Assembly: GCF_021049265.1 (NCBI RefSeq)
Contig: NZ_CP088018.1
Coordinates: forward strand, 1,240,001-1,304,000
DNA: 64,000 nucleotides
From: Ruania suaedae
GTDB lineage: Bacteria > Actinomycetota > Actinomycetes > Actinomycetales > Beutenbergiaceae
Direction of reading: 5' to 3'
The notes below the pieces were generated by a model that was given only the letters and a program-made list of their open reading frames with translations, ran no database searches and had not been told where the DNA came from. This document shows, piece after piece, positions 24,045 through 43,621 of the stretch. Each line of letters opens with the position of its first letter. The first letter of the stretch is position 1. Both the position numbers and the translations under genes were made by a program.

Positions 24045-25067
24045 ATGCTGCCCCTCACCCTCGGCTACAAGGCCTCCGCCGAACAGTTCGGACCCCGCGA
24101 GCTCGTCGAGCTCGGCGTCGCTGCCGAGGCCCACGGGATGGACTCGGTGGCAATCAGCGACCACTTCCAGCCGTGGCGGCACGAGGGTGGTCACGCCCCG
24201 TTCTCACTGACCTGGATGGCGGCAGTCGGCGAGCGCACCGAGCGCATCCGCATCGGTACCTCGGTCATGACGCCCACCTTCCGCTACAACCCCGCGGTCC
24301 TCGCCCAGGCGTTCGCCACGATGGGCATGCTCTATCCGGACCGGGTGATGCTCGGCGTCGGCACGGGGGAAGCCCTCAATGAGATCGCCACCGGCTTCCA
24401 GGGCGCCGGGGAGCAGCAGTGGCCGGAGTTCAAGGAGCGCTTCGCCCGCCTGCGGGAGGCCGTCCGGCTCATGCGGGCGCTGTGGGCCGGCGAACGGGTG
24501 GACTTCGACGGCGAGTACTACTCCACCCACGGCGCCAGCATCTACGACAAGCCCGAGGGCGGCATCCCCGTCTACATCGCCGCCGGTGGGCCGGTGGTCG
24601 CCCGCTACGCAGGGCGCGCCGGCGACGGCTTCATCTGCACCTCCGGCAAGGGCATGGAGCTCTACACGGACAAGCTCCTGCCCGCCGTGGCCGAAGGCGC
24701 CGGCAAAGCCGAACGGGACGCGGAGCAGATCGATCGGATGATCGAGATCAAGATCTCCTACGACACCGACCCGGACCTGGCGCTGGAGAACACCCGTTTC
24801 TGGTCCCCGCTCTCCCTCAGTCCGGAGCAGAAGCATTCCATCGACGACCCCGTCGAGATGGAGCGCGCCGCTGACGAGCTCCCGATCGAGCAGATCGCCA
24901 AGCGCTGGATCGTCGCCTCCGACCCCGACGACGCCGTGGAGCAGGTGCTCGACTACCGCCGCGCCGGGTTCAACCACCTCGTCTTCCACGCTCCCGGCCA
25001 CGATCAGCGACGCTTCCTCGAGCTGTTCGAACGTGATCTCGCGCCCCGGTTGCACGCCGCGGGGTGA
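24045..25067 (+). CDS. fgd: F420-dependent glucose-6-phosphate dehydrogenase
   Basis: Oxidises glucose-6-phosphate to 6-phosphogluconolactone while reducing coenzyme F420; it is the main F420H2 source in mycobacteria. The 340-residue protein follows mycobacterial Fgd1 closely: [98 protein letters not shown] and [17 protein letters not shown] near the end. The segments around residues 40 (DHFQPW), 75 and 107 include the F420/G6P site seen in Fgd1. ATG 24045 has AAAGGA 9 bases upstream. No other pentose-pathway gene is adjacent. Confidence 0.96.
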
Positions 25068-25085
25068 TCGGCCTGCGAGACGCCG

Positions 25086-25140
25086 GTGACGTGGTGGCAA
25101 CCGAGGAAGCCATCCATGGAAACCTGGACGCTCTAGCGTC
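25086..25140 (+). promoter_or_regulatory. GlnR-box-like promoter of the chelatase gene
   Basis: Half-sites GTGAC (25086), GCAAC (25097), AGCCA (25108, weak) and GAAAC (25119) have exact 6-base spacers. Then come 10 bases and TAGCGTC (25134-25140). The geometry is identical to that of narK and nirB. A start at about 25146 would exclude the ATG/GTG at 25144 as start codon and supports ATG 25186. Confidence 0.68.
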
Positions 25141-25185
25141 ACCATGGTGACGACCACCGCCTGGGCCCCGACCGAGGAGCCGACC

Positions 25186-25902
25186 ATGTCCCGGACGTCC
25201 ACCGACCCGGCTCCGCCGGTGCTGCTCGCCTGCTCGCACGGCACCTCCTCCCCGGCCGGCCAGCGGGCGATCGCCGCACTGGTGGACGCGGTGGCCGCCG
25301 GCCGACCCGAGATCCCGGTCTCCTCAGCCTTCGTCGACGTGCAGGAGCCCGACGTCCCCACCATCCTCGACGAGCTCGGCGAGACCGAGGTGCGGGTGGT
25401 GCCGCTGCTGATCTCGGCTGGGTACCACGTGCACGTGGACCTGGCCGAGGCGGTCGACGGGCGCGCCGGCGCCCACGTGACAGGTGCGCTCGGCCCCGAC
25501 CCCCGGTTGATCGCTCTGCTCACGCGCCGGCTGCACGAGGCAGGGCTGCACGCGGGGGACGCGGTGGTGCTGGCAGCGGCCGGATCCTCCAACGCCGGCG
25601 CCGTGGCCGACTGCCGGCAGGTGGGGGAGGAGCTGGCGGCCGCGTTGGGCCGCCCGGTCACCACGGCGTTCCTGTCCGCGGCGCAGCCGCGCCTTCCCGA
25701 CGCCGTAGCCGAGGCCCGCGGCCGTCTCACCGCTCCCGGTGCCCGGGTGGCGGTGGCCACCTACCTCCTCGCGCCGGGCTACTTCGCCGACCTCGCGGCC
25801 CGTTCGGGGGCCGAGCTGGTCACCCCGCCGCTGCTCACCGACGACGAGCCCCCCGCGACCGAGCTGGTCGAGATCGTGCTCGACCGCTACCAGGAACGCT
25901 GA
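25186..25902 (+). CDS. sirohydrochlorin chelatase (CbiX/SirB family)
   Basis: Inserts Fe2+ into sirohydrochlorin to finish siroheme. The 238-residue protein has two similar halves of the chelatase fold: LLACSHGTSSPAGQRAI with the metal-binding His, and VVLAAAGSSNAGAVAD. VVPLLISAGYHVHVDLAE supplies the second metal-site His. The SirB/CbiX pattern argues for iron over cobalt because the only user visible is NirB. ATG 25186 follows GAGGAG at 25174-25179. Its promoter carries the same box as narK and nirB, tying it to nitrate assimilation despite 3.3 kb of separation from nnaR. Confidence 0.88.
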   Translation: MSRTSTDPAPPVLLACSHGTSSPAGQRAIAALVDAVAAGRPEIPVSSAFVDVQEPDVPTILDELGETEVRVVPLLISAGYHVHVDLAEAVDGRAGAHVTGALGPDPRLIALLTRRLHEAGLHAGDAVVLAAAGSSNAGAVADCRQVGEELAAALGRPVTTAFLSAAQPRLPDAVAEARGRLTAPGARVAVATYLLAPGYFADLAARSGAELVTPPLLTDDEPPATELVEIVLDRYQER

Positions 25903-25903
25903 G

Positions 25904-26824
25904 TCACCCGACTCGCAGCACGACCTTGCCGGTCGTGGTCCCCGACTCCACCGCCTCGTGCGCCGCGGCGGCCTCGGTCCACGGCAGCACCCGGTCGATG
26001 ATCACCTCGAACCGGCCCTCGGTGAGCAGATCCGCGACCTCTCCGAGCGCATGCCAGGCGCGACCCTCGGACCCGTCGGTGACGATCGCCGCCGTCTCGC
26101 CGGAGAAGTCGGCGATCGTGGCCACCCGGGCAGCGTCACCGGTGAGCTCGATCAGCTCCGACGCCGCGCCCTTCCCGGCCAGATCGGCCGAGACGAGCTC
26201 CGCTGCCGCGAGTCCGGCTTCGGCGAGCACGCCCCGGACCCGATCGGCCAGCCCCGGGCCGTAGGTCGTCACCAGCCCACCGAGGCGCCGCACGAGGTCA
26301 TGCTTGCTCTCCGAGGCGGTGCCCACCACGTGCACTCCGCGGGCTCTCGCGAGCTGGACCAACGCCGTCCCGACCCCGCCGGAGGCACCGTCGACGACGA
26401 GCACCTGCCCGCCCTCGGCGTGCACCGCCTCCAGGATCCGTACGGCCGTCTCGGCAGCGGTCACCACCGCGGCGCTCTCCTCGCTGCCCACGTCCTCGGG
26501 CGTCGACCAGAACGCCGTCAGGGTGGCGAACTCGGCCGTGACGGAACTGCCCGCGCCGAAGACACGCTGGCCGACCTCGTATCCCCGCACACCCTCGCCG
26601 ATCTCGTCCACGACGCCGGCGGCGTCGGAGCCCGGAACGCGTGGGGCACGCAGCACGCGCCCAGGCTTGGCCATGGCGCCGGACCGCAGCGTGGCGTCGA
26701 TCGGGTTCACGGCCACCGCCTCGACGGCGATCCGCACCTCGCCGGGGCCGGCGTGCGGCTCCTCGGTCTCACCGAGGGTGAGGACGTCGGGTCCGCCATA
26801 GGAGTGGTACTGGAGTGCGCGCAC
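25904..26824 (-). CDS. zinc-free MDR oxidoreductase (quinone oxidoreductase-like)
   Basis: NADPH-dependent medium-chain reductase, 306 residues. The GroES-like N-terminal domain (RALQYHSYGGPDVL; AVNPIDATLRSG; PGSDAAGVV) is followed by a Rossmann domain with VDGASGGVGTALVQLA. No structural or catalytic zinc Cys cluster is seen, as in quinone reductases. The C-terminal end GTTTGKVVLRV is typical. The GTG start is 26824. Its stop is one base from the converging chelatase gene, with no room for a separate terminator. Confidence 0.88.
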   Translation of the reverse strand: MRALQYHSYGGPDVLTLGETEEPHAGPGEVRIAVEAVAVNPIDATLRSGAMAKPGRVLRAPRVPGSDAAGVVDEIGEGVRGYEVGQRVFGAGSSVTAEFATLTAFWSTPEDVGSEESAAVVTAAETAVRILEAVHAEGGQVLVVDGASGGVGTALVQLARARGVHVVGTASESKHDLVRRLGGLVTTYGPGLADRVRGVLAEAGLAAAELVSADLAGKGAASELIELTGDAARVATIADFSGETAAIVTDGSEGRAWHALGEVADLLTEGRFEVIIDRVLPWTEAAAAHEAVESGTTTGKVVLRVG

Positions 26825-26841
26825 GAGGGGCTCCGATCGGG

Positions 26842-29496
26842 CTACTGGGGCTGCTTGGGTTCGGGGGGCAGCAGCTCCCCGGTCACCGCGATTCCGGTGG
26901 CGTCGGTGGATTCGGTGACGGTCAGCTCACCCGTCACCCGGCCGGCGGCCCGCAGGTCACCGGCCACGGCCTCCACCAGAGCCCGCTGCCCGGCCGGCAC
27001 GGTCAGGGACGCGGAGACGAAGGAGGTGCGCTGGGAGACCTTGGCCTCCGACTTCACCTTCCGCATCGCGGCCAGGGCCGCACCGGCGGCCGGCAGCAGA
27101 GCGGGGTCGCCGTCCCCGGCGGCCTGGCGCAGCAGGTCCGGCGTCGGCCAGGCGGCCCGGTGCACCGAGCCCTCCCGCCACCAGGACCAGACCTCCTCGG
27201 TGGCGAACGGCAGGAACGGGGCGAACAGCCGCAGCAGCGTGTCGAGGGAGAGCCACAGCGCCGCACGAGCGCTGGCGGTCGCCTCGGCCGTCACCGCAGC
27301 GGCCTCGCCGCCGTAGGCACGATCCTTGACCAGCTCGAGGTAGTCGTCGGTGAAGGTCCAGAAATAGGACTCGGCCAGCTCCAGTGCCCGGGCGTGGTCG
27401 AACCCCTCGAACGCCGCACTCGCCCTCTCCACCACACCGGCCAGCTCGGCGAGCGCCGCGCGGTCGATCGGCTCGGTCACGGCCGCCGGGTCCAGGGTCA
27501 GGGAGTCGGCACCGAAGGACAGGGCGAACTTGCTGGCATTGAGCAGCTTGATCGCCAATCGCCGGCCGATCTTCATCTGCCCCTCGTCGAAGGCGGTGTC
27601 GGCGCCCAGACGGGCCGAGGCGGACCAGTAGCGGACGGCGTCGGAGCCGTGCTGTTCCAGCAGACCCAGCGGGGTGACCACGTTGCCCTTGGACTTGGAC
27701 ATCTTCTTGCGGTCCGGGTCGAGGATCCAGCCGGAGATGGCGGCCCTGTGCCAGGGCAGGCTGTCGTGCTCCGCGTTCGCCCGCACCACGGTGGAGAACA
27801 ACCAGGTGCGGATGATGTCGTGCCCCTGCGGGCGCATGTCATAGGGGAAGACGGTCTCGAAGAACTCCGGGTCGCGCTCCCAGCGGCCCGCCAGCTGCGG
27901 GGTCAGCGAGGAGGTGGCCCAGGTGTCGAGCACGTCCGGGTCGCCCACGAAGCCGCCCGGCTCGCCACGCTGCTCGGCGGTGTAGCCCTCGGGCACGTCG
28001 GTGGCGGGGTCGATCGGCAGCTGGTCCTCGCTGGGCACCAGCGGGTTGTCGTAGACGATCTCGCCGGCGTCATCCAGCCGGTACCAGACCGGGAAGGGCA
28101 CACCGAAGAATCGCTGGCGGGAGAGCAGCCAGTCACCGGTGAGTCCGTCCACCCAGTTCTCGTACCGGGACTCCATGTGCCCCGGGTACCAGGTGATCTC
28201 CTTGCCGCGCTTGACCAGCGCCTCGCGGAGGTCGGCGTCGCGTCCGCCGTTGCGCACGTACCACTGCCGGGAGGAGACGATCTCCAGCGGCTTGTCGCCC
28301 TTCTCGAAGAACTTCACCGGGTGGGAGATCGTGCGCGGTTCGCCGTGCAGGTCACCGGACTCGGTGAGCAGCTCCACCATCGTCTTCTGCGCGGAGAAGA
28401 CCGTCATGCCCACCAGCCGCTCGTAGGCGGCCAGCCCCTCGGGCGAGGTGATCGCCGTCGGGGGCTCGGCGAGGATGCGCCCGTCGCGGCCGATGATGGT
28501 GCGGGTGGGCAGGTTCAGCTCGCGCCACCAGGTGACGTCGGTGGTGTCACCGAAGGTGCAGATCATCGCGATCCCGGCGCCCTTGTCCGGGTCGGCGAGC
28601 GGGTGGGCGAGCACCGGCACCTCGACCCCGAACACCGGGGAGGTGACGCTCGAGCCGAACAGCGGCTGGTAGCGCTCGTCGTCGGGGTGGGCCACCAGTG
28701 CCACGCACGCGGCGAGCAGCTCCGGCCGGGTGGTCTCGATGACCACTGGTCCGTCCGGGCCATGGAAGGAGATCCGGTGATAGGCCCCCTCCCGGTCCCG
28801 GTCCTCCAGCTCGGCCTGGGCGACGGCGGTCTGGAAGGTGACGTCCCACAGCGTCGGGGCCTCGATCTGGTAGGCCTCGCCACGGGCGAGCTGACGCAGG
28901 AACGCGCGCTGCGACGTCTGCTGGGCCGCCGGACCGATGGTCTGGTAGGTCTGCGCCCAGTCCACGCTCAGGCCCAGGTAACGGAAGACCTGCTCGAAGC
29001 TCTTCTCGTCCTCGGCGGCCAGTCCCAGGCACAGCTCGACGAAGTTCTGCCGGGAGATCGGGGTGGGCCGGTGCTTCTTCGGCACGTCACCGGCATACGG
29101 CGGGGTGAAGTCCGCCTCGTAGGGCAGCGAGGTGTCCACCTGCACGCCGTAGTAGTTCTGCACCCGCCGCTCGGTGGGCAGGCCGTTATCGTCCCAGCCC
29201 ATCGGGTAGAACACCTCGCGGCCGCGCATCCGCTGGTAGCGGGCCATGCAGTCGGTGTGGGTGTAGGAGAAGACGTGCCCGATGTGCAGCGAGCCGGACG
29301 CCGTCGGGGGAGGTGTGTCGATCGAGAACACCTGCGCACGCGGGCGGGTGCGGTCGAAGGCGTAGGTGCCCTTCTCACCCCACGCCTGCGCCCAGCGGTT
29401 CTCCAGACCGTCGAGCGAGGGCTTGTCCGGTACCTGCGCGACCGGGCGGAGGGGCTCGATCGGGGCGGTGGCAGGGTGCGGGGTGTGCTCGCTCAT
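26842..29496 (-). CDS. valS: valyl-tRNA synthetase
   Basis: Class I synthetase of 884 residues charging tRNA-Val. The HIGH motif is in SGSLHIGHVFSYTHTD (about residue 75) and KMSKS in KKMSKSKGNV (about 590). The editing (CP1) domain contains FHGPDGPVVIETTRPEL, and the anticodon-binding helical domain lies after 640 (YFWTFTDDYLELVK). It is on the minus strand, although the usual folC partner is on plus 23 kb away. A short C-terminal segment replaces the long coiled-coil arm seen in many bacterial ValRS. Confidence 0.96.
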   Translation of the reverse strand: MSEHTPHPATAPIEPLRPVAQVPDKPSLDGLENRWAQAWGEKGTYAFDRTRPRAQVFSIDTPPPTASGSLHIGHVFSYTHTDCMARYQRMRGREVFYPMGWDDNGLPTERRVQNYYGVQVDTSLPYEADFTPPYAGDVPKKHRPTPISRQNFVELCLGLAAEDEKSFEQVFRYLGLSVDWAQTYQTIGPAAQQTSQRAFLRQLARGEAYQIEAPTLWDVTFQTAVAQAELEDRDREGAYHRISFHGPDGPVVIETTRPELLAACVALVAHPDDERYQPLFGSSVTSPVFGVEVPVLAHPLADPDKGAGIAMICTFGDTTDVTWWRELNLPTRTIIGRDGRILAEPPTAITSPEGLAAYERLVGMTVFSAQKTMVELLTESGDLHGEPRTISHPVKFFEKGDKPLEIVSSRQWYVRNGGRDADLREALVKRGKEITWYPGHMESRYENWVDGLTGDWLLSRQRFFGVPFPVWYRLDDAGEIVYDNPLVPSEDQLPIDPATDVPEGYTAEQRGEPGGFVGDPDVLDTWATSSLTPQLAGRWERDPEFFETVFPYDMRPQGHDIIRTWLFSTVVRANAEHDSLPWHRAAISGWILDPDRKKMSKSKGNVVTPLGLLEQHGSDAVRYWSASARLGADTAFDEGQMKIGRRLAIKLLNASKFALSFGADSLTLDPAAVTEPIDRAALAELAGVVERASAAFEGFDHARALELAESYFWTFTDDYLELVKDRAYGGEAAAVTAEATASARAALWLSLDTLLRLFAPFLPFATEEVWSWWREGSVHRAAWPTPDLLRQAAGDGDPALLPAAGAALAAMRKVKSEAKVSQRTSFVSASLTVPAGQRALVEAVAGDLRAAGRVTGELTVTESTDATGIAVTGELLPPEPKQPQ

Positions 29497-29556
29497 GGTG
29501 CCCGATCATCCCAGATCCGGACACAGCCGTGCTAATCGCCCGTTCGCCGCCTCCGG

Positions 29557-30672: not shown

Positions 30673-30728
30673 GATGGGCCCGAGTCTGCCACGGCTCCTG
30701 CCGCGGAGGGTGGGATACGTTGAGGACC

Positions 30729-32111: not shown

Positions 32112-32126
32112 CAGTGCCTGCAGCCC

Positions 32127-32142
32127 CCGCGCGGTCGCGCGG
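32127..32142 (+). terminator. small GC hairpin between the GH4 and LLM genes
   Basis: CCGCGCG (32127-32133) pairs with CGCGCGG (32136-32142), just after the GH4 stop. The loop is tight and the effect uncertain. Confidence 0.35.
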
Positions 32143-32166
32143 TCGCCGTCGGATATCGTGCGCACC

Positions 32167-33162
32167 ATGGCGAGCATCGGCTACGCGGCTGCCCTCGAGC
32201 AGCTGCACCCACGCGACGCCGTCGACCTCGCCCAGCGCGCCGAGGAGCAGGGACTGAGCGGCACGATGGCCACCGACGTGATGCAGCCCTGGGTCCCCGC
32301 GCAGGGCCAGGCGAGCTTCGTGTGGAACGTGCTCACCGCCGTCGCCGAACGGACGCGCGGTGACCTCGGCCCCGGGGTGAGCGTGCCGGCCTTCCGCTGG
32401 CACCCGGCCGTGCTGGCCCAGGCCAGTGCGACCCTGGCGGCGATGTATCCGGGCCGGCACTGGCTCGGCATCGGCTCCGGGGAGGCGATCAACGAGCATG
32501 CGGTGGGCCGGTACTGGCCGGAGGCACCCGAGCGCATCAACCGGATGTTCGAGGCGATCGACCTCATCTCCAAGCTGTTCACCGCCTCCCTCGCCGGCAA
32601 GGACCACAAGCACTCCGGGGAGTTCTTCCGGATGGAGTCCACCCGGTTGTGGACCATGCCCGAGGCGGCGCCGCCTATCCTGGTGGCCACCGCAGGGCCG
32701 GTCACCGCCCGCCGGGCCGGGCGCCTCGCCGACGGGCTGATCACCATGGGAGGGCCGAGCGAGAAGGTCGCGCGCCTGTTCGAGCGGTTCGCCGCTGGGG
32801 CCCGTGACGCCGGCAAGGACGCGGCCGCCATGCCCCGGGTGATCCGACTGCACCTGTCCTGGGCGCCCACCCAGGCCGAGGCCGTCCGCCATGCCCTCAC
32901 CGAGTGGCCCAACGGCGCGATGAAATTCTCCAAGGCCGACCTGCGCTCGCCCTTCGAGGTCGCCCAGATCGCCCGGATGGTGCGGCCCGAGGACTTCGCC
33001 GGTGCGATGGTGGTCTCCGCCGACCCGGCCGACCACCTCGCCGAGATCCAGCGGTACGTGAACCTCGGTGCCACCCGCCTCTACCTGCACAACGTGGGCC
33101 GCAACCAGTCCGAATGGCTGGACGTGCTCGGCTCCGAGATCCTTCCGAAGGTGGTTCATTGA
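32167..33162 (+). CDS. LLM-class F420-dependent oxidoreductase related to Fgd
   Basis: TIM-barrel luciferase-like protein of 331 residues. Motifs parallel Fgd: [89 protein letters not shown]. It lacks the Fgd HFQPWRH segment, so its substrate differs. F420 rather than FMN is inferred from this similarity and from the next gene, which finishes F420. ATG 32167 is the start. Its stop overlaps the cofE start (TGATG at 33160-33164), showing a two-gene coupled operon. Confidence 0.85.
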
Positions 33163-33896
33163 TGCTGCTCGCCCAGGCGCCCGAGGGGATACCCGAGGTC
33201 ACTTCCTCCACCGACCTCGCCGCCGCCCTCACCCCGGTACTCGGTGCGTTGACCTGGCCCGACGGGTCCACCGGTCTGGCGGAGGGAGACATCGTGGTCG
33301 TCGCGTCCAAGGTGGTGGCCAAGGCGGAGGGACGGCTGCGCAAGGCTGCCGACCGTGACGCCGTCATCGATGCCGAGACGGTGCGTACCGTGGCTCGGCG
33401 TGACTACCCCGACGGCTCCAGCCTGAAGATCGTGGAGAACCGGCAGGGCCTGGTGATGGCCGCCGCCGGGGTGGACTCCTCGAACGTGCTCCCCGGCACG
33501 GTGCTGCTGCTGCCCGAGGACCCGGACGAGTCCGCGCGCGGCCTGCGCCGTGGCCTGAACGCCCGGCTCGGGCTACGCCCCGGGGTGCTCGTCACCGACA
33601 CCGTCGGTCGCCCCTGGCGGCGTGGGATCGCCGACATCAGCATCGGGGCGGCCGGGATCGATGTGCTGCAGGACCTGCGGGGCGAGCGGGACGCGCAGGG
33701 CCGCGAGCTACGCGCGACCGTGATCGCCGTGGCCGATGAGATCGCGGCCGCCGCCGACCTGGTGCGGGGCAAGACCGGCGGGCGACCGGTGGCCGTGGTG
33801 CGCGGGCTGAGCCACCTGGTCACCACCGAGGACGGAGCCGGTGCCCAGGCGGCCATCCGGCCGGCCGAGGAGGACATGTTCCGCACCGGCTCCTGA
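33162..33896 (+). CDS. cofE: coenzyme F420-0:L-glutamate ligase
   Basis: GTP-dependent enzyme adding glutamates to F420-0. The 244-residue protein shows the CofE pattern: [89 protein letters not shown] and [16 protein letters not shown]. Mycobacterial FbiB is about 450 residues because it carries a C-terminal FMN reductase domain; here that domain is absent and the protein stops at the CofE module. Start overlap with the LLM gene indicates co-translation. It is 5 kb from a candidate F420-0 ABC transporter. Confidence 0.93.
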
Positions 33897-33905
33897 GGGG
33901 TGCGG

Positions 33906-33977
33906 CACCGAACTGACGGGCCCCAGCGATACCGTGCCGTATCCGGCACACCTGCGCTGAGGGCCGTCAGTTCGGTG
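33906..33977. terminator. long imperfect inverted repeat between convergent genes
   Basis: Arms of 23 bases (33906-33928 and 33955-33977, both starting CACCGAACTGACGG on their own strand) match at 21 positions. A nested stem GTGCCG/CGGCAC (33934-33939, 33944-33949) sits at the tip. It lies 10 bases after cofE and 4 bases before the converging MMPL stop, so it can serve as a bidirectional terminator; a small palindromic mobile repeat is also possible. Confidence 0.65.
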
Positions 33978-33980
33978 CTG

Positions 33981-36314
33981 TTAGTTCCTGACGTCGGCGC
34001 GGTGTTTGGCCGCCTCGCCGGAGCCCTCTTCCGCTGCGGCGAGCGAGCGCACCAGCTTGTCGCCCTCGACGTCCAGGTTCGGCAGGATCCTGTCCAGCCA
34101 GCGCGGCAGCCACCACGCCTTCTCCCCGGCGATCGCCATCACCGCCGGGATGAGCGTCATCCGGACGATGAAGGCATCGAAGAGGATGCCGATGGCGAGG
34201 GCGAAGCCGATCTGCTTGATCATCGCGTCGTGGGCGAAGATGAAGCCCGCGAACACCGACACCATGATCACCGCGGCGGCGAGCACCACCCGGGCGGCGA
34301 GCTGGTAGCCGTGCCGCACCCCGCGCACCCCCGGGTGGCCGTGCACGTGCGACTCGCGCATCGAGGAGACCAGGAACACCTGGTAGTCCATCGCCAGCCC
34401 GTACAGGATCCCGGTGATGATGATCGGCAGGAAGCTCAGCAGCGGGCCGGGGGTGTCGAAACCGAACAGCTCCTTCGCCCAGCCCCACTGGAACACCGCA
34501 GTGGTGGCCCCGAGCGTGGCGAGGATGCTGAGGACGAACCCGAGGGTCGCCGTCACCGGCACGAAGAGCGAACGGAACACCAGCAGCAGAATGAGCAGCG
34601 AGAGGGCCACGATCACCGCGAGGTAGGGCACGAGGGCGTCGGAGAGCACCTGCGACATGTCGATGTTGATCGCCGTCACCCCGGTCACGCCCAGCTCGGT
34701 CGCGCCCAGGTCACCGGTGCCGTCCAGGTCACGCAGCTCGGTGACCAGATCGGCGGTGGCCTCGTCGTTCGGGCCGGCGTCAGGCACCACGGTCAACGTC
34801 AGCAGTGTGCCGTCCTCGGACTGCCCGGAGGGCATCACGGCGCTCGCACCGGGCACCTCGAGCAACTCCTCCTTCAGCGTGGTGACATCCTCGGGGGTGT
34901 AGGCCTGCGCGGACTCGGCCACCACCAGCAGGGGCGCGTTGAAACCCTCGCCGAAGCCCTCGGTCACGGCGTCATAGCTCTGCCGCTCCACCGTGTCCTC
35001 GTTCGCCGTGGCGGCCGAGGGAAGATTCAGCTGCATGCTCGCGAAAGGCACCGCGATCACGCCCAGTGCCAGCACGACGGCGACCGTCACCAGCGCCTTG
35101 CGGCGCACCAGGCCGGTGACCCAGCGGGTGGCCGGGGCCGGCGTGTCCAGCTCGTCGGTGTCGGCCTCGGCGGCCCGGGCGCGCTGCTTGGGCGTGACGA
35201 GGCGCTCACCGACCAGGCCCAGGATCGCCGGGAGCAGGGTGAGGGCCACGGCGACCGCGATCGCGACCGTGCCCGCAGCGATGAGGGCCATGATCGTCAG
35301 GAACTCCACCCCGACGACCGACAGCCCACTGAGGGCGACGATCACGGTGAGTCCGGCGAAGAAGACCGCGCTGCCGGCGGTGCCGACCGCGCGTGCGGTG
35401 GCCTCCCGGGCACTCAGGCCCTGGTCGAGCACGAACCGACGCGCGCGGTTGACCAGGAAGAGCGCGTAGTCGATGCCGACGGCCAGGCCGATCATCAGTG
35501 CCAGCACAGGCGTCACCGACGTCATCGGGATGATGCTGGAGAGCGCATAGGCGGTCCCCACGCCGATACCCACGCCGATCAGCGCGGTGATCAGCGGCAG
35601 CCCGGCCACGACCAGCGAGCCCAGGGTCAGCACCAGCACGATGGCGGCCACGACCAGGCCGACGATCTCGTTGGAGCCGATCGGCGATTCGAACGTCTGG
35701 GTGAGGCTCTCGGACGGGAGCACGCTCAGCCCAGCCGACTCGGCGCTCTCGGCGGCCTCGATGAGCTCGTCCGCGGCACCCTCGGGCAGGTTGAGCACCT
35801 GGTCGGTGAGCTGGATGTTCAACATGGCGATGGAGCCGTCGGAGGAGGTGATCACGCCCGGAACCGGGGTCTCGCCGTCCAGCAGGGGGTTCAGTTCGAG
35901 GTCGCCGCCAGGAGCGAACGCCTCGGCAGCAGCCTGCGCGGCTGCCGCCTCCTCCTCGCTCATGGTGGCCGGGTCGGTCTGCTCGGTCTCTTGGGCCACC
36001 ACGATGTCGCTCGTGGTGATCTCGCTGACGGCGCTCGCGATCGCCGAGGCCGCCTCCGCGTCGTCGACCCGCTCGCCCTCGGGTGCGGTGAAGACGATGC
36101 TGGCCTGGGCACCGGCGGCGCTGGGCATCTCCTCGTCCAGGGTGTCCAGGACCTGCTGGGCGGGCGTGCCGTCGATGCGGAACTCGGTGGACAGCTGCGG
36201 CGGGTTGAGCGCCAGCGCCCCGCCCACCAGCGCGAGGAGGAGGACCCAGACGGCGATGACCCGCCCGCGCGTGCGGTAGGCGAGCGCGCCGAGGCGGTAC
36301 AGGAGAGTGGACAA
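33981..36314 (-). CDS. MMPL-family RND transporter
   Basis: Inner-membrane exporter of 777 residues, 12 predicted helices in two sets of six, each preceded by an extracytoplasmic loop. First loop: about residues 40-215. The proton-relay region is MIGLAVGIDYALFLVNR; the second-half counterpart is GILYGLAMDYQVFLVSSMRE. Such pumps export lipids or drugs. The TTG start at 36314 has AAAGGGAA about 8 bases upstream. It lies 50 bases downstream of tetR on the same strand, so is likely its regulated target. A cytoplasmic charged tail ends the protein. Confidence 0.92.
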   Translation of the reverse strand: MSTLLYRLGALAYRTRGRVIAVWVLLLALVGGALALNPPQLSTEFRIDGTPAQQVLDTLDEEMPSAAGAQASIVFTAPEGERVDDAEAASAIASAVSEITTSDIVVAQETEQTDPATMSEEEAAAAQAAAEAFAPGGDLELNPLLDGETPVPGVITSSDGSIAMLNIQLTDQVLNLPEGAADELIEAAESAESAGLSVLPSESLTQTFESPIGSNEIVGLVVAAIVLVLTLGSLVVAGLPLITALIGVGIGVGTAYALSSIIPMTSVTPVLALMIGLAVGIDYALFLVNRARRFVLDQGLSAREATARAVGTAGSAVFFAGLTVIVALSGLSVVGVEFLTIMALIAAGTVAIAVAVALTLLPAILGLVGERLVTPKQRARAAEADTDELDTPAPATRWVTGLVRRKALVTVAVVLALGVIAVPFASMQLNLPSAATANEDTVERQSYDAVTEGFGEGFNAPLLVVAESAQAYTPEDVTTLKEELLEVPGASAVMPSGQSEDGTLLTLTVVPDAGPNDEATADLVTELRDLDGTGDLGATELGVTGVTAINIDMSQVLSDALVPYLAVIVALSLLILLLVFRSLFVPVTATLGFVLSILATLGATTAVFQWGWAKELFGFDTPGPLLSFLPIIITGILYGLAMDYQVFLVSSMRESHVHGHPGVRGVRHGYQLAARVVLAAAVIMVSVFAGFIFAHDAMIKQIGFALAIGILFDAFIVRMTLIPAVMAIAGEKAWWLPRWLDRILPNLDVEGDKLVRSLAAAEEGSGEAAKHRADVRN

Positions 36315-36364
36315 GGCAGGTTCCCTTTCGGTGTGCCGTGGGGGATCGGGATCTGGGGTAGGGA

Positions 36365-37060
36365 TCAGGAGGCGGGGCCGGGGGGTGCCGGGGCGCCGAT
36401 CCCGGTGGTGAGGAACGTCACGAGCCGGGCGACCAACTCCTCGGTGGTCAGCGCGGTCGGAGAGGAGCCGTCGATCTCACGGACCTGTGTCTCGCGCAGG
36501 ATCACCGAGGACAGTGCGGAGACGACGACGCCGGGCACCAGCCGCGCCACGAACGGGTCGAGCGCGCCGAAGGAGGGGTTGGCGAGCAGCCGCGCCGCGT
36601 CCTCGCGGGCCTGGGCCTCGACCTGACGCACGTGGGGCAGCAACGAGGGGTGCTGCTCGGCGAGGTCGGCGAACTGCCGGAAGAGTGTGACGAGCCCCGG
36701 GTCGAGCAGGGCCCGCGTCACGTGGGCGATGGTCTCGAGCAGGTCGGTGCGGCTGAACGCGTCGATGACGGCGCACTCGTCCATCTCCGCGGTTGCGCCA
36801 GGGTGGACGAGATCCGCGAGCGAGGTGTGCACCGACATGGCGACCACGTGACTGATCGCCTCCTCCTTGCCGGAGAAGTGGTTGAAGAAGGTGCGGCGGG
36901 AGACCCCGGTCGTCTCCGCGACCTCGTCGATGGTGAAGCCGTCGACGCCGCGCTCGCGGGCGAGGGTGAAGGCGGCCCGGGCGAGCTCCGAGCGGGTCTG
37001 AGCCCGCTTGCGCTCGCGCAGGCCGGCGGCGGAACGCGTCGGTCCGGGTGGGGTGGTCAC
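36365..37060 (-). CDS. TetR-family transcriptional regulator
   Basis: Repressor of 231 residues with an N-terminal helix-turn-helix at about 25-65 (FTIDEVAETTGVSRRTFFNHFSGKEEAI). The ligand-binding C-terminal half is not recognisable by name. GTG 37060 (TTPPGPTRS) is chosen; a TTG at 37096 would place the start inside the operator. It precedes the MMPL exporter, giving the usual regulator-pump operon. A near-perfect palindrome at 37083-37112 is its likely operator. Confidence 0.92.
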   Translation of the reverse strand: MTTPPGPTRSAAGLRERKRAQTRSELARAAFTLARERGVDGFTIDEVAETTGVSRRTFFNHFSGKEEAISHVVAMSVHTSLADLVHPGATAEMDECAVIDAFSRTDLLETIAHVTRALLDPGLVTLFRQFADLAEQHPSLLPHVRQVEAQAREDAARLLANPSFGALDPFVARLVPGVVVSALSSVILRETQVREIDGSSPTALTTEELVARLVTFLTTGIGAPAPPGPAS

Positions 37061-37082
37061 CCTTCGACGGTCACACGATAGG

Positions 37083-37112
37083 TGCACAGAGTGCAATTCT
37101 GCACTGTGTGCA
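37083..37112. promoter_or_regulatory. palindromic operator for the TetR/MMPL operon
   Basis: TGCACAGAGTGCA (37083-37095) and TGCACTGTGTGCA (37100-37112) are inverted repeats with one mismatch around ATTC. The palindrome is 22 bases before the tetR start and 45 bases before the divergent gene at 37158, so it could control both. Confidence 0.75.
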
Positions 37113-37157
37113 TTCCGTCACATGTGCGCGAGTCGCCGGAGGCGGGACAATGGGGGG

Positions 37158-37919
37158 ATGAGCATGATTCCTCCGGTCGGTGCGGGCGGTATGGCAGACC
37201 CCGACGAACCCAGCAGATTGAGCTACGCGGGCCTCTACGCCGCCGCCGACCGTGAGCGCCTTCTCACGACGCTCGGTGAGCTCGGTTTCACCGGCTGGGT
37301 GGGTCCGCAGGAGGGGCGCTGGGTGCTGGCGATCGCCGTCAACGCCCGCGGTGCCGTCGCCTCCCGGCGACGCATGATCGACATGGTGGCGCGGGAGTGC
37401 GCCGAGGACCTGGGGGTGGCCGTGCTGGCTGCCGAGGTCGCGCGGGAGGAGCGGCTGCAGCTGGTCGGTTTCGACGGCGAGGGTGAACAGGTGCGCTACG
37501 ACAGCAACCCTCCCGAGGAGGAGTCCCACCACGCCGAGATGGTGCTGGACGAGTTCGGCGAACCGGTGATGGCCGAGGGCGCCTTCGATGAGCCCGACGG
37601 CGAGGAGGTGGCCCGGCGGCTGCTCGCCCTGTGCGGCGTGCAGGCCCAGGACAGCGAGGCGGACTCGCTCGCCGAGCTGCTGGAGGAGGAGCTCGGGGAG
37701 TCGACGAACGAGTCCGAACGGATCAAGGCCGTCGCCCGGGCCCTGCACCTACCGACCTGGATCGTCGCCTCCTCGTCGCTGCCCCGGCGGGTGCCCGGCG
37801 GCCCGGAGCGCCATGAGGTGACCTATCTCGGCCGGGGAAGGCAGGGTGCCTCCGGCCGGTTCGCCGCCGCGTGGAGCAACCGGGTCCGCAAGAAGGCCAA
37901 GGACCCCGAGCGTCGGTGA
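37158..37919 (+). CDS. hypothetical actinobacterial protein
   Basis: Cytoplasmic protein of 253 residues without signal or membrane segment. I do not recognise the family. An alpha/beta-looking N-terminal half (YAGLYAAADRERLLTTLGELGFTGWVG; RWVLAIAVNARGAVASRRRMIDMV) is followed by a strongly acidic middle (DSEADSLAELLEEELGES) and a basic C-terminus (RFAAAWSNRVRKKAKDPERR). ATG 37158 follows a G-run; ATG 37164 is an alternative. It is divergent from tetR across a shared palindrome, and 3 bases from the converging phospholipase-D-type gene. Confidence 0.7.
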   Translation: MSMIPPVGAGGMADPDEPSRLSYAGLYAAADRERLLTTLGELGFTGWVGPQEGRWVLAIAVNARGAVASRRRMIDMVARECAEDLGVAVLAAEVAREERLQLVGFDGEGEQVRYDSNPPEEESHHAEMVLDEFGEPVMAEGAFDEPDGEEVARRLLALCGVQAQDSEADSLAELLEEELGESTNESERIKAVARALHLPTWIVASSSLPRRVPGGPERHEVTYLGRGRQGASGRFAAAWSNRVRKKAKDPERR

Positions 37920-37922
37920 GGG

Positions 37923-39179
37923 CTAGAGCAGCGGGCCGAACGGTTTGATCAGCTGCTCGAGCACGCGGGTCACCGGCCCGCGCTGACTCCACTCCTCCAG
38001 CGTCAGCTGCCGGGCGTTGGTCAGATCGGTGGCGAAGACCTGCTCCATGTGGCGGGCGAGTTCGTCGTCGAAGATCTCGAGGTTCACCTCGAAGTTCCCG
38101 GTCATCGACATCCGGTCGATGTTCGCGGTGCCGATCGTCGACCAGCGCCCGTCCACGGTCATGGTCTTGGCGTGCACCATGGCCCCGGTGAAGAGCCAGA
38201 GCGTGACTCCCGCCTCCAGCAGGGTCCGGTAGAAGGTGCGTGCGGCCCAGTCGGCGATGACGTGATTGGAGACCTCCGGCACGAGCACCCGGACGTCCAC
38301 ACCCCGGTCGGCGGCGGCGATGAGGGCGTGCAGGATCTCCCGGTCCGGGATGAAGTAGCCCTGGGTGATGTAGACGTGGGACTCGGCCCGGTCGATCGCC
38401 TCGAGATAGAGCCCGCGGACGGGGAACAGCAGCCGGCTCGGGGTGTTCTCGGCGGCGCGGATACGCGGCTCCCACCGCTGGGCGCCGGTGTCGGGGAGCT
38501 CGGGCTGGCCGGCTGCGCGGTGCTCGTTCCAGAAGTCGGTGAAGGCGTCCTGCAGCTCCCACACCGAAGGCCCTTCCAGCCGCACGTGCGTGTCGCGCCA
38601 CTGGGTGGCGTACAGGGATCCGATGTTGTAGCCGCCGACGTACCCGACCTCGTCGTCGACGACCAGCAGCTTGCGATGGTCGCGGCCGGTCTTGCGCATG
38701 TTCATCGTGAGCAGGCCGGGCCGGAAGAAGGGGAACCACAGCACGTGCAGCGTCGGCAGGTCGGGCAGCTTCTTGAAGCGCGGGTCCACCACGAGGTTGC
38801 CCCAGCTGTCGACGATGACGTAGACCTCCACACCTCGCCGGGCGGCCGCGATCAGCTCGTCCTTGAACTGCTGGCCGACGTCGTCGGACTTCCAGATGAA
38901 GGTCTCGAAGTAGACCCTGCGTTCGGCGCCACGGATCGATTCCAGCATGGCGTCGTAGACGTGCTGGCCGTAGGTGTAGACGGTGACGTCGGTGCTGGAG
39001 ACGGTCAGGGTCTGCGGGGGAGTGCGCGGGAACTCGCCCCCAGGAGGGTCACGGCGCTTGCGTAACCGATCGACCGCCACGACGACGGCGATCGCCGTGC
39101 CGTGTGCCACGGCGGCGATCGCCATCCACCAACTGAGCATGCGCCGTCCCCGGCGGAACATCAGGGACACCCTCGACAT
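37923..39179 (-). CDS. cardiolipin synthase-like phospholipase D protein
   Basis: Membrane-associated PLD-superfamily enzyme of 418 residues. One N-terminal helix (WWMAIAAVAHGTAIAVVVAV) is followed by two HKD motifs: GRDHRKLLVVDDEVGYVGG and VHAKTMTVDGRWSTIGTANID. It probably joins phosphatidylglycerol or a related lipid into cardiolipin; a general PLD role is possible. ATG 39179 was chosen since the preceding in-frame sequence is hydrophilic and unlike the family. Seven bases of G-rich sequence (GGTGGGG) lie upstream of it. Confidence 0.88.
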   Translation of the reverse strand: MSRVSLMFRRGRRMLSWWMAIAAVAHGTAIAVVVAVDRLRKRRDPPGGEFPRTPPQTLTVSSTDVTVYTYGQHVYDAMLESIRGAERRVYFETFIWKSDDVGQQFKDELIAAARRGVEVYVIVDSWGNLVVDPRFKKLPDLPTLHVLWFPFFRPGLLTMNMRKTGRDHRKLLVVDDEVGYVGGYNIGSLYATQWRDTHVRLEGPSVWELQDAFTDFWNEHRAAGQPELPDTGAQRWEPRIRAAENTPSRLLFPVRGLYLEAIDRAESHVYITQGYFIPDREILHALIAAADRGVDVRVLVPEVSNHVIADWAARTFYRTLLEAGVTLWLFTGAMVHAKTMTVDGRWSTIGTANIDRMSMTGNFEVNLEIFDDELARHMEQVFATDLTNARQLTLEEWSQRGPVTRVLEQLIKPFGPLL

Positions 39180-39226
39180 GACCCCACCGTACCCGTCCGG
39201 GAGATCGCGGCCGGGGCCGTCCCAGG

Positions 39227-40021
39227 TCAGAGGGTGGTGAAGACCAATGTCCGTCCGGTGCGGCCGGTCACCCACTCGGCCCGGACGCCGTACACCCGCG
39301 CAATGAGGTCAGGCGTGAGGACGTCCTCGGGACTGCCGACGGCCGCCACCGCACCCCGGTCCAGCACCAGCACCTGATCACAGGCCTGGGCGGCGTGCGC
39401 CAGGTCGTGCAGCGCCATCAGCACCCCGGTACCGCCACCGGCGACCTCCCGCACGAGCGCGAGCATCGCCAGCTGCGCGGCGACGTCGAGGTGGTTGGTC
39501 GGCTCGTCCAGCAGCAGCAGTCGCGGCTGCTGGGCGAGCGCGCGGGCGAGCTGGACGCGCTGACGCTCGCCACCGGAGAGAGTGGCGAAGTCCCGGTCGG
39601 CCAGGTCGGCTGCGCCCGCCCGGGCCAGGCACTCCTGCGCGAGCGCACGATCCGCCGGTGAGTCACCCCCGAACGGCCCGCGATGGGGGATCCGGCCCAG
39701 CAGCACCACCTCGCGGGCGGTGAGGGCGATCTCGGTATGGGCCTCCTGTTCCACGAACGCCATGGTCCGGGCCCGGGTGCGGCGGCTCAGCTCGCGCGCG
39801 TCGGTGCCGCCCAGTCGCAGCAGGCCGGCGCTCGCGGGCAGGGCGCCGACCAGCACCCGCAGCAGGGTCGACTTCCCGGAGCCGTTCGGGCCGAGGACCC
39901 CGGTCACCTCCCCGGCGCGCAGGCTGAGCGAGACCTCCCGCAGCAGCTCGGCCGACTCCACCCGGTAGCCGAGCCCCTCGGCGCTCAGGTCCGCGACGCG
40001 CAGCTCGGTCCCGGCGCTCAC
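39227..40021 (-). CDS. ABC transporter ATP-binding protein, FecE-type (proposed F420-0 uptake)
   Basis: ATPase of 264 residues for a vitamin/siderophore-type importer. Walker A is GPNGSGKST, the signature LSGGERQRVQLARAL, Walker B LLLLDEPTNHLD, and the H-loop ALHDLAHA. GTG 40021 overlaps the permease stop by 4 bases. Sequence alone would also allow iron or B12 import. The F420-0 assignment rests on the three-gene cassette type reported in actinobacteria with F420 enzymes, and on fgd, the LLM gene and cofE nearby. Confidence 0.88.
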   Translation of the reverse strand: MSAGTELRVADLSAEGLGYRVESAELLREVSLSLRAGEVTGVLGPNGSGKSTLLRVLVGALPASAGLLRLGGTDARELSRRTRARTMAFVEQEAHTEIALTAREVVLLGRIPHRGPFGGDSPADRALAQECLARAGAADLADRDFATLSGGERQRVQLARALAQQPRLLLLDEPTNHLDVAAQLAMLALVREVAGGGTGVLMALHDLAHAAQACDQVLVLDRGAVAAVGSPEDVLTPDLIARVYGVRAEWVTGRTGRTLVFTTL

Positions 40022-41160
40022 GAGGCGCCCCGGTGGCGCAGCAGCAACCAGGCGAAGACGGGTGCCCCGATCGCGGCGGTGAGGATGCCCACCGGGACCT
40101 CCGAGGGCTCGAAGATCGTGCGGGCGCCGGTGTCGGCCCACACCAGGAACACCGCCCCGCCCAGCGCCGCCAGCGGCAGCAACCGCACGTGCCGGGAGCC
40201 GATCAGGAGGCGCACCACGTGCGGGATGACCAGGCCGACGAACCCGATCGAGCCGCTGACGCTGACCAGCGCGCCGGTGAGCAATGCCGTCAGGGTCAGC
40301 AGCAGCCACCGGGTGCGGGGCACGTGTACGCCGAGCGAGGCGGCCGCGGTGTCGCCGAAGGCGAACGCGTCCAGGCTGCGCCCGCGGGCGAGCACGAGCG
40401 CCCCGATGATCACGACGGCGCCCCCTGCGATGGCCACGGACGTCCAGGTGGCCGCGGCCAGGGACCCCATCAGCCAGTTGATGATCTCCCGGTAGGAGTC
40501 GCCCTGGGCGGTGGAGAAGATCACGAAGGAGACCAGCGCCGAACAGCCCTGGGCCACCGCGATGCCGGCCAGGATGGTCCGCGCGGGCGTGAGCCGCCCG
40601 CCGAGCCCGGCCAGGGCGAGCGTGGCGCCGAGGGCGAGGAGGGCGCCGGCGAAGGCGGCGATCGGCAGGGCGATCGCGACGCCCAGCAGCAGCACCGCGA
40701 CCGCGCCCAGTGCGGCGCCGGAGGAGACCCCGAGCAGGTAGGGGTCGGCCAGGGGGTTACGGGTGATGGCCTGCATCACGGCACCGCACAGCGCCAGACC
40801 GGCGCCGACGCAGGCCGCCGTCAGCAACCGGGGGGCGCGACCCTGCCAGACGATCGCGTCCCGGATGGTGGTCAGGGGATTGTCCGCCGGCGTGATCGGC
40901 AGGCCGCGATCGGCCAGCCAGGTGAGGCCGTGGTGCCAGGCGCTGCCGACTACGTCGGCGGGGGTGATCGCGGCCGGGCCGAGGGTGAGCGCGAGCAGCA
41001 GCGAACCGAGCAGGAGGCCGAGTCCGGCCGGGAGCCAGGCAGCCATCCCGCCGCGGACCACGGAGCGTCTCTCGGTCGGCGGAGCCGGCGTGGCTCCGCC
41101 CGCGGGTTCCTCCCGGCCGGCGGCTCGCCGGTCGGTACTGGTGGCGCCCGGTCTGCTCAC
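40018..41160 (-). CDS. ABC transporter permease, FecCD-type (proposed F420-0 uptake)
   Basis: Permease of 380 residues with about nine or ten helices and a disordered N-terminus of about 35 residues (RRAAGREEPAGGATPAPPTE). FecCD signatures are ITRNPLADPYLLGVSSGAAL, GSIGFVGLVIPHVVRLL and GVLT-like ends (EVPVGILTAAIGAPVFAWLLL). GTG 41160 overlaps the binding-protein stop; its own stop overlaps the ATPase. It thus forms a tightly coupled three-gene operon. Substrate assignment is as for the ATPase, by context. Confidence 0.9.
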   Translation of the reverse strand: MSRPGATSTDRRAAGREEPAGGATPAPPTERRSVVRGGMAAWLPAGLGLLLGSLLLALTLGPAAITPADVVGSAWHHGLTWLADRGLPITPADNPLTTIRDAIVWQGRAPRLLTAACVGAGLALCGAVMQAITRNPLADPYLLGVSSGAALGAVAVLLLGVAIALPIAAFAGALLALGATLALAGLGGRLTPARTILAGIAVAQGCSALVSFVIFSTAQGDSYREIINWLMGSLAAATWTSVAIAGGAVVIIGALVLARGRSLDAFAFGDTAAASLGVHVPRTRWLLLTLTALLTGALVSVSGSIGFVGLVIPHVVRLLIGSRHVRLLPLAALGGAVFLVWADTGARTIFEPSEVPVGILTAAIGAPVFAWLLLRHRGAS

Positions 41161-42173
41161 CCGGCCGCCGTCGTGGACTCCAGCTCGTCGAGCTGGGTGG
41201 CGAGATCGGCCGCGGCGTCCACGCTACGCACGCCGGCCTCGCTGGCCGGGAAGGGCACGATCAGGTAGCGCTCCTCCTGCACGGCGGGCAGGACGGCGGT
41301 GGTCGGGGTGGACTCGAGCACCTCGATCTTGTGCTCGGCGGTGTTCCAGGCGGAGTCGACGAGCACGATCACGTCGGGGTTCTCCTCGGCGATCGCCTCC
41401 CACGAGGCCGAGGCCCACGTCTCCTCGGTGCCGGCCATGATGTTGCTCAGGCCGGCGGTCTCCATCAGCAACTGAGGCGCGCCGATCCCGCCGCCGACGA
41501 ACGGGGTGTCGGAGCCGGAGGAGTACCACAGGGCTGTGAGCCCGGAGCCGGAGGCCTCGATACCCTCGAGCCGCTGCTGCTGGTCGGCCACCAGCTCGGC
41601 GGCGGCGTCGGGGGCGCCGAGCAGATCCCCGGCCTCGGTGATCGAGGCGAAGACGTCGTCGAAGGTGAGGGGGTCGGGCTGGTACTCCGGGGCCTGGCAG
41701 GCGGCGGGGGAGACGTAGGTGGTGATACCGAGCTGCTGCAGGTCGGCGCGCACACCGGCACCGTCGGCGGAGAAGTTCGACTCCCAGCCGGCGAACACGA
41801 GATCCGGCTCAGTCTCCAGCACCACCTCCTCCGACGGCGCGCGCTCGGCCAGCACCGGGGCATCGGCGCCGGTCCCGGCGAGGTCGCCCGGGAGTGGGCC
41901 GTCGGAGAACGCGGTGCCCACGAGCCGGTCTCCCAGTCCGAGGGCGAGCACCATCTCGGTGGAGGTGGACTTGATCGTCACGATCCGCTCCGGCGCCTCG
42001 GCCACGGTCACCTCGGTGCCGCAGTTGTCCACGGTGACGGGGTAGGTGCCCGAGGCGGCCGAGGGCGCGCCGGCGGACGCGCTGGGATCCGGATCGGCGG
42101 AGGCGCCGCCGGAGCAGCCGGCGAGGCCGAGAACGAGGGCGACGGACGCGAGTGTGGAACGGGTCGACGGCAC
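41157..42173 (-). CDS. ABC transporter substrate-binding lipoprotein (proposed F420-0 binding)
   Basis: Secreted lipoprotein of 338 residues with lipobox LGLAGCSGG at about 15-23. The BtuF/FepB-type fold has the N-lobe VTVDNCGTEVTVAEAPERIVTI and IKSTSTEMVLALGLGDRLVG, then a central helix and the C-lobe WASASWEAIAEENPDVIVLVD. Residues such as TEMVLALGLGDRL and FVGGGIGAPQLLMETAG resemble the binding proteins of cassettes proposed to import F420-0. GTG 42173 follows AGGAGT at 8 bases. Upstream (42174-42302) I see no riboswitch core. Confidence 0.85.
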   Translation of the reverse strand: MPSTRSTLASVALVLGLAGCSGGASADPDPSASAGAPSAASGTYPVTVDNCGTEVTVAEAPERIVTIKSTSTEMVLALGLGDRLVGTAFSDGPLPGDLAGTGADAPVLAERAPSEEVVLETEPDLVFAGWESNFSADGAGVRADLQQLGITTYVSPAACQAPEYQPDPLTFDDVFASITEAGDLLGAPDAAAELVADQQQRLEGIEASGSGLTALWYSSGSDTPFVGGGIGAPQLLMETAGLSNIMAGTEETWASASWEAIAEENPDVIVLVDSAWNTAEHKIEVLESTPTTAVLPAVQEERYLIVPFPASEAGVRSVDAAADLATQLDELESTTAAG

Positions 42174-43118: not shown

Positions 43119-43621
43119 GCTGACCCTCCCTTCCCTGCGGTGCGGTCGAGCAGATGCAGCAACCGGCGTCTGGCGCGGAACAGCCGGACCGCGAACGTGG
43201 ACTTCGTGCAACCGAGCACGGTCGCGGCCTCGTCGTTGCTCAGCTCGTCCCAGGCCACGAGCGAAATGACCTCCTGCTCGGCCCCGGTGAGCCGGTTCCA
43301 GGCGGCGGCCAGATCCTGCCGGCCGGCGATCGCGGAGGCGAGGTCGGTCTGCGCCTCCTGCGGCTGTGCGTCGATGCGCACCTTCAGCAGCGTCTGGCGA
43401 TTCTGCGACCGCAGCTGGTTGCGCAGGACGTTGCGGGCGACGCCGAACAACCACGGGCGCGCGTTCTCCGGCACATCGTCGATGCGACGCCACGCCACCA
43501 CGAACGTTTCGGCCACGATGTCCTCGGCCTCCGCCTCTGTGCGGCGGCGGATGAAGGCCAGCAACTCACGGTGATGCTCCCAGTAGAGAGCTTCGAACCG
43601 CCCCTCCGGGCCGGCCTTCAT
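43115..43621 (-). CDS. ECF-type RNA polymerase sigma factor
   Basis: Sigma-70 family protein of 168 residues with only regions 2 and 4. Region 2: FEALYWEHHRELLAFIRRR and DIVAETFVVAWRRIDDVPENARPWLFGVARN. Region 4 HTH: LTGAEQEVISLVAWDELSNDEAATVLGCTKSTFAVRLFRARR. ATG 43621 has the GTAAGGGACGGGGAGGAGGCGG-like purine-rich leader upstream. It is co-translated with the membrane partner. A secreted-protein gene begins divergently 150 bases away and could be a target. Confidence 0.92.
   Translation of the reverse strand: MKAGPEGRFEALYWEHHRELLAFIRRRTEAEAEDIVAETFVVAWRRIDDVPENARPWLFGVARNVLRNQLRSQNRQTLLKVRIDAQPQEAQTDLASAIAGRQDLAAAWNRLTGAEQEVISLVAWDELSNDEAATVLGCTKSTFAVRLFRARRRLLHLLDRTAGKGGSA

Follow-up and report, generated by a model that had tools for sequence, protein, structure and literature searches.

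Ruania suaedae, an actinobacterium, probably cannot make the redox cofactor F420 itself, to judge from its gene content, and we consider it likely that it imports F420-0 through an ATP-binding cassette (ABC) transporter and then adds glutamate to it with the ligase CofE. The transporter genes lie at 39227–42173 of the 64,000-nucleotide stretch of DNA analysed here (the window), which corresponds to positions 1240001–1304000 of a single-contig genome of 3,557,440 bases, 99.98% complete. Their products would form a type II importer of the BtuCDF/FecBCDE kind, whose lipoprotein would catch F420-0 (FO plus phospholactate, with no glutamate) released by F420-making neighbours and whose permease and ATPase would carry it into the cell. 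CofE (33162–33896) would add the gamma-glutamate tail, and Fgd and luciferase-like monooxygenase (LLM) enzymes – for example, the one whose gene is coupled to cofE – would use the finished F420. We infer F420-0 as the substrate, the uptake itself and the extracellular source; a host with cofE only has no route known to us from FO to F420 and would need F420-0.

Antibiotic synthesis and the breakdown of pollutants involve unusual reductions driven by F420. If many actinobacteria borrow its precursors, F420 would be a shared community good, and surveys that look for full pathways only would undercount its users.

Genes for the proposed import, completion and use of F420

Window proteins were assigned by NCBIfam scans, with bit scores compared with the curated cut-offs. 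The three importer genes stand on the minus strand, beginning with a substrate-binding lipoprotein of 338 amino acids (41157–42173; TIGR03868, 454.3 bits against a cut-off of 392.4), which has the lipobox LAGC with Cys20 (by eye) and is 84% identical to its counterpart in Ruania rhizosphaerae. A FecCD-type permease (40018–41160; TIGR03869, 482.4 bits, cut-off 437.35) comes next, and then an ATPase running from a GTG at 40021 to 39227, whose best family is TIGR03873 (330–331 bits, cut-off 372.4). The two junctions, binding protein/permease and permease/ATPase, are overlaps of 4 bp each (GTGA), in agreement with the overlapped ABC operon that a preliminary description of this DNA had placed at 39227–42173. 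That description had also proposed comparison with the three F420-0 transporter models, and here the binding protein and the permease score over cut-off, while the ATPase has TIGR03873 as its best model but falls under the cut-off. The competing heme, B12 and siderophore families that it had named all trail: the next family reaches 117 bits (a siderophore model) against 454 for the binding protein, 254 (BtuC) against 482 for the permease – a 228-bit gap – and 240 (a heme model) against 330 for the ATPase, with BtuD at 144.

On the plus strand, fgd (24045–25067) scores 677 bits with TIGR03554 (cut-off 420). The gene for an F420-type LLM oxidoreductase (32158–33162, plus strand; TIGR03557, 259 bits, cut-off 210; TIGR03885, 274 bits, under its cut-off of 399) starts at GTG 32158 or, as in the preliminary description, at ATG 32167, and its stop is overlapped by the ATG of cofE at 33162. 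This last gene (33162–33896, plus strand) encodes a stand-alone F420-0:gamma-glutamyl ligase of 244 amino acids (TIGR01916, 215 bits, cut-off 181), which lacks a reductase domain, since its match to the FbiB-like model NF009810 is confined to positions 19–246 of 449. These identities, from fgd at 24045 to the Fgd-related LLM gene overlapping a cofE without the FbiB reductase domain, are those that the preliminary description had given.

The same description had staked its proposal on the absence of the remaining pathway genes, and across the complete genome there is indeed no match to cofD (TIGR01819) at E ≤ 1e-3, to cofH (TIGR03551) at E ≤ 1e-20, or to cofC (TIGR03552) and cofG (TIGR03550) at E ≤ 1e-5. 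A hidden cofD is ruled out as well: the sole match to PF01933, the CofD superfamily, is a 340-amino-acid protein encoded between rapZ and whiA, which we take to be YvcK (all three names being assigned by sequence and context). Among the 14 luciferase-like matches in the genome are Fgd and the LLM gene product. The resulting combination – cofE present, cofC, cofD, cofG and cofH unmatched, and F420-dependent enzymes present – is reportedly the host pattern in the description of the F420-0 transporter models. Compared with the complete bacterial pathway (FbiA/B/C/D), in which CofE is the counterpart of the N-terminal half of FbiB, this genome has no FbiA-, FbiC- or FbiD-type match and its CofE is without the FbiB reductase half; the model for the C-terminal part of FbiB (TIGR03553) was uninformative, being over cut-off in none of 80 genomes, full-pathway controls included.

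Selengut and Haft 2010 (J Bacteriol) reportedly proposed the F420-0 ABC transporter cassette (TIGR03868/TIGR03869/TIGR03873) for a situation like that of this host, and of the five genomes underlying these models four are said to have had cofE alone. The same families in the same gene order are found here, in a cofE-only actinobacterium with fgd. What sets this genome apart is that importer and cofE point towards each other and are separated by an MMPL/TetR pair and a cardiolipin-synthase-like gene.

The cassette and F420 genes across the order

We surveyed 396 genomes of the same order – evenly drawn, and including that of R. suaedae – for the binding protein, cofD, cofH and cofE. The 105 genomes counted as cassette hosts comprise 97 over the TIGR03868 cut-off and eight at 294–382 bits (one in two pieces), the next group lying at 232 bits or below. 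Presence was called by cut-off for cofD and by E ≤ 1e-20 for cofE and cofH; for cofE this admits sub-cut-off matches (236 genomes match, 185 of them over cut-off).

By these calls, cofE is present in 104 of the 105 cassette hosts compared with 132 of the 291 other genomes, and the single exception, which has the cassette alone, is a genome only 69% complete. Cassette, cofE and cofD occur together in 56 genomes, the same three with cofH in five, and the cassette with cofE in 43 (cofE-only hosts, like R. suaedae). Of the latter, 38 are at least 95% complete, and all eight surveyed Ruania genomes, our own included, have the cassette and cofE and no cofD. The genomes without the cassette divide into 54 with cofE, cofD and cofH, 53 with cofE only, 25 with cofE and cofD but no cofH, two with cofH only, one with cofD and cofH, and 156 with none of the four.

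Cassette and cofH are largely mutually exclusive where cofD is present: of these 141 genomes, 56 have the cassette only, 55 cofH only, five both and 25 neither (Fisher 7e-14). The genes cofC and cofG were each tested in 80 genomes. Of the cassette hosts that have cofD but no cofH, 31 were tested and all contain cofC (30 over cut-off), so that, in contrast with the reported cofE-only pattern, many surveyed cassette hosts also retain cofD and cofC; in the 43 cofE-only hosts cofC is never over cut-off, with three weak matches of 27–39 bits. cofG is present in 15/15 tested genomes with cofH and absent in 65/65 without it. Fgd exceeds its cut-off in 22 of the 60 cassette hosts sampled, R. suaedae among them, versus 0 of 20 genomes without cofE.

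The survey also yielded some observations on cofD and cofH outside the cassette loci. Of the 396 genomes, 25 have cofE and cofD but are without both FO synthase and the cassette; the one of them that was tested for cofC has it. The cassette was not seen at seven fetched cofD loci of these 25 genomes (L239–L242 and L244–L246; L243, from G385 and read beside them, is a full-pathway locus), and at one of the seven, L244, LLM, cofE, cofC and cofD stand together, as in cassette loci. Six further loci (L262–L267) have a separate cofD, mostly with cofC beside it, and in some genomes a small nitroreductase-like gene is close by; these cofD are 59–86% identical among Occultella, Pseudactinotalea terrae and others, their neighbourhoods differ between groups, and the module looks mobile or re-acquired. 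Finally, G069, G083, G167, G197, G302, G329, G352 and others contain a long frame with a divergent cofH domain, at about 190–300 bits against 465–537 for the usual FbiC; cofG is over cut-off in all five tested genomes with such a domain, and the frames possibly represent a second FbiC type.

Locus organisation in two classes of host

The neighbourhood of the cassette was mapped in the 105 host genomes over at most 19 kb, with 9 kb on either side and less where a contig ended. In all 43 loci of the cofE-only hosts, the binding-protein gene is followed by those for permease and ATPase. In 36 of them cofE stands on the other strand, 35 of these having it downstream and convergent, and an LLM gene is present in 34 of the 43, while cofC and cofD occur in none. 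The commonest map, with binding protein, permease and ATPase in one direction followed by cofE and LLM in the other, accounts for 24 of the 43. The linkage of importer, cofE and LLM gene is conserved among relatives, and that of importer and cofE is not due to chance.

In the 56 hosts with cofE and cofD but no cofH, the same stretch contains cofD in 31 loci (28 of them in the direction of the cassette), cofC in 32, cofE in 33 and LLM in 32. Here the commonest map (16 of 56) is binding protein, permease, ATPase and cofD in one direction, then cofC, cofE and LLM in the other, and in 24 loci a same-strand cofD comes after the cassette, with no more than 150 bases between its start and the end of the aligned ATPase in 23 of these. 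In hosts with cofC and cofD and without FO synthase, cofD is thus often the fourth gene of the importer operon. The same two maps are also the commonest among 80 named loci (17 and 15, respectively).

Binding-protein residues that mark the host class

Three residues of the binding protein – numbered, as throughout, by its open reading frame (ORF) in the window – differ between the host classes. A basic residue at 111, Ser at 274 and a basic residue at 281 are found in 39, 38 and 36 of the 43 cofE-only hosts, in 17, 8 and 3 of the 56 hosts with cofE and cofD, and in 1, 0 and 0 of the five full-pathway hosts. All three together occur in 32 of 43 cofE-only hosts and in none of the 61 with cofD (0/56 with cofE and cofD, 0/5 full-pathway). 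The R. suaedae protein has R111, S274 and H281; its genome, lacking cofC and cofD and having this signature, differs from the putative FO-importer class, which combines cofC and cofD with the absence of cofG, cofH and the 111/274/281 signature. A contrary case is provided by four Occultella genomes (genus g2) with a distant cofD, which keep Ser274 but have Q111 and Y281.

On the binding-protein tree, the host class is clustered yet has changed many times, since the class labels require 11–15 changes, against about 33–38 for shuffled labels (10 when the presence of cofD alone is scored). Rooting on 10 paralogues places mostly cofE-only rows at the base, but long branches meet there. Independent lineage pairs with and against the cofE-only state number 5.0/0.0 at 111, 4.2/0.0 at 274 and 5.2/0.5 at 281 on this tree, and 5.8/0.0, 6.4/0.1 and 6.4/1.0 on a tree of permease and ATPase; single-column sign tests for these residues are not significant (median p 0.06–0.125, binding-protein tree). 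Columns that reach a pair difference of 4 on the permease and ATPase tree number 10 in the binding protein, two in the permease and two in the ATPase. Because the residue columns had been picked as best, 250 label histories with a similar number of changes were simulated per tree. Against these, the best binding-protein column has P 0.008 on the permease and ATPase tree and a borderline 0.06 on the binding-protein tree, and the second-best basic column P 0.004 on both; no class signal against simulated labels was found in the columns of the permease (P 0.29, 0.45) or the ATPase (0.46, 0.42).

For a check outside the survey, 80 named loci were fetched, of which 60 entered alignment A1 and 37 shared no identical stretch with the survey set and had a class assignable from local gene content, by which a cofD absent locally may still be elsewhere in the genome: 14 have cofE without cofD and 23 have cofD (12 with neither gene and 11 already surveyed were set aside). 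Between the two groups, a basic 111 occurs in 14/14 versus 12/23 (Fisher 0.002), Ser274 in 11/14 versus 0/23 (4e-7), a basic 281 in 13/14 versus 3/23 (2e-6) – all three tests ignoring relatedness – and the full set in 10/14 versus 0/23.

Two other candidate markers were rejected: position 285, a top column by divergence but weak on independent changes, and overall net charge, which gives no usable difference (means −31, −34 and −37; standard deviations 3–9).

Structural setting of the marker residues

An AlphaFold model of the binding protein (pLDDT, its local confidence measure, 94.4; pTM, the global one, 0.90; model number = ORF number − 34) has as its best Foldseek match 4mlz, a solved structure of a periplasmic binding protein of Jonesia denitrificans, released in 2013 under a title that names neither function nor ligand, with 51% identity and a TM score of 0.91 to the model; by eye, the 4mlz sequence is that of G320, a cofE-only host. 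Residue 111 lies in the loop preceding the helix of E116, whereas 274 comes immediately after a strand, with 281 near the start of the helix that follows. Residues 111 and 274–281 would lie beside the ligand cleft.

The vitamin B12 importer BtuCDF of Escherichia coli shares the fold class and transporter type of the window cassette, although BtuF is only 23–25% identical to the binding protein in a profile alignment and the permease prefers TIGR03869 over BtuC. BtuF Trp85, Glu72, Trp196 and Glu202, which presumably dock the permease or touch the ligand, align with W130, E116, W253 and E259, retained in 103 to 105 of 105 rows. Residue 111 adjoins the aligned position of BtuF Trp66.

Two proposed tunings of a deazaflavin importer

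We lean, if only slightly, towards regarding the TIGR03868 cassettes as a deazaflavin-importer family with two tunings: for FO, in cofC/cofD hosts without FO synthase, where cofD is often the fourth operon gene, or for F420-0, in cofE-only hosts, with basic residues at 111 and 281 and Ser274 beside the cleft. Hosts would have changed class many times, gaining or losing cofD and cofC at one spot of a conserved locus. The assignment of FO or F420-0 to either class is drawn from gene content; cofC and cofD retained without FO synthase would make sense if FO comes from outside. The preliminary description, which took the cassette for an F420-0 importer, is supported for R. suaedae itself, whereas the survey suggests FO as the cargo in many relatives.

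According to passages of PMC11917521, FO is usual in the supernatants of producers, at micromolar levels, and passages of PMC10949242 describe yeast equipped with the downstream enzymes as converting supplied FO into F420 and suspect its import to be low. The only ABC transporter named in the consulted passages of PMC8498797 is a possible exporter. In the literature searched, mostly without subscription papers, no experimental test of the predicted importer was found.

The probable family-level split between FO and F420-0, with its residue marks, is new, whereas import of F420-0 had been predicted, reportedly by Selengut and Haft 2010. The split sharpens the prediction: each binding protein would prefer one of two precursors, with three residues marking the preference.

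Alternative cargoes

Several points weigh against F420-0 import in R. suaedae. Its ATPase scores under the curated TIGR03873 cut-off (330 against 372.4). This cut-off seems narrow for cassette ATPases: among 50 sampled from 103 (aligned stretches), about eight are better than E 1e-111, which roughly equals it, and 47 are better than E 1e-75. Fgd is missing from 38 of the 60 sampled cassette hosts, 11 of the 43 cofE-only hosts are without the full residue set, and G117, which has neither cofC nor cofD, carries the residues of the other class (G111, A274, D281). Passages of PMC11917521 and PMC11104420 name FO as a free extracellular compound, and in the literature searched no report of F420-0 as one was found. 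Moreover, importing short-tailed F420 would yield an identical gene pattern.

This last point leads to the possibility, which we regard as unlikely, that the importer takes up F420 with a glutamate tail already attached (F420-n), leaving CofE only to extend or mend that tail. Intact F420 could plausibly be released from lysed producers, and the retention of cofE in 104 of 105 hosts is silent on the number of glutamates in the imported form; with such a cargo, however, cofE should sometimes be lost, and it is missing only from the one incomplete host; two further hosts, G062 and G277, have weaker cofE matches (E 3e-49 and 6e-48, under cut-off level). We hold it somewhat less probable still that FO is imported here too, unrelated enzymes having replaced CofC and CofD. 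Relatives with cofC and cofD and without FO synthase do carry the same cassette, often with cofD adjoining, and micromolar FO is described in producer supernatants (PMC11917521); but both genes would have had to be replaced in the 43 cofE-only hosts, and three positions set the binding protein of this class apart, two of them by a positive charge, as expected for a phosphorylated and carboxylated ligand.

Least probable, in our view strongly so, is import of cobalamin, heme or a siderophore with an incidental link to F420. The cassette belongs to the same superfamily as such importers, Foldseek lists many heme and siderophore binding proteins under its top matches, and we know of no liganded structure of this binding-protein family. 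Against such a cargo, the F420-0 models outscore the next families by 89 to 337 bits, neither BtuC nor BtuD is the best match, and the window has no cobalamin riboswitch, its Rfam gathering matches being two tRNAs; the link to cofE and the exclusion of cofH would also be left unexplained. Import of F420-0 followed by glutamylation keeps our preference for this host.

Other genes in the window

The stretch 24045–42173 is not a single operon, which is ruled out by the unrelated genes between its F420 parts – a class I tRNA synthetase, a PfkB kinase, a GH4 glycosidase, an MMPL protein, a TetR regulator, the cardiolipin-synthase-like gene and others. The last of these lies directly after the ATPase (37923–39275, minus strand; best family TIGR04265, 261 bits, under the cut-off of 290) and is present in 9 of 43 cofE-only and 4 of 56 cofD-bearing (no cofH) cassette loci; it is a neighbour retained in part of the family, for which we claim no role in F420 metabolism. 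The MMPL-family transporter and the TetR regulator occupy 33981–37096, between cofE and this gene. In three of the eight Ruania genomes, ATPase and cofE are about 1.4 kb apart rather than about 5.4 kb.

Upstream of the importer, a 396-amino-acid frame at 42303–43493, with no Pfam or NCBIfam match and a lower third-position GC (0.76), is perhaps a non-gene. A protein with an NYN domain and a C-terminal OST-HTH/LOTUS domain (46912–48033) adjoins a GNAT acetyltransferase. At 20728–21864, a uroporphyrinogen-III synthase domain is fused to a winged-helix regulator domain, and a CbiX-like chelatase gene (25144–25902) lies not far from this fusion.

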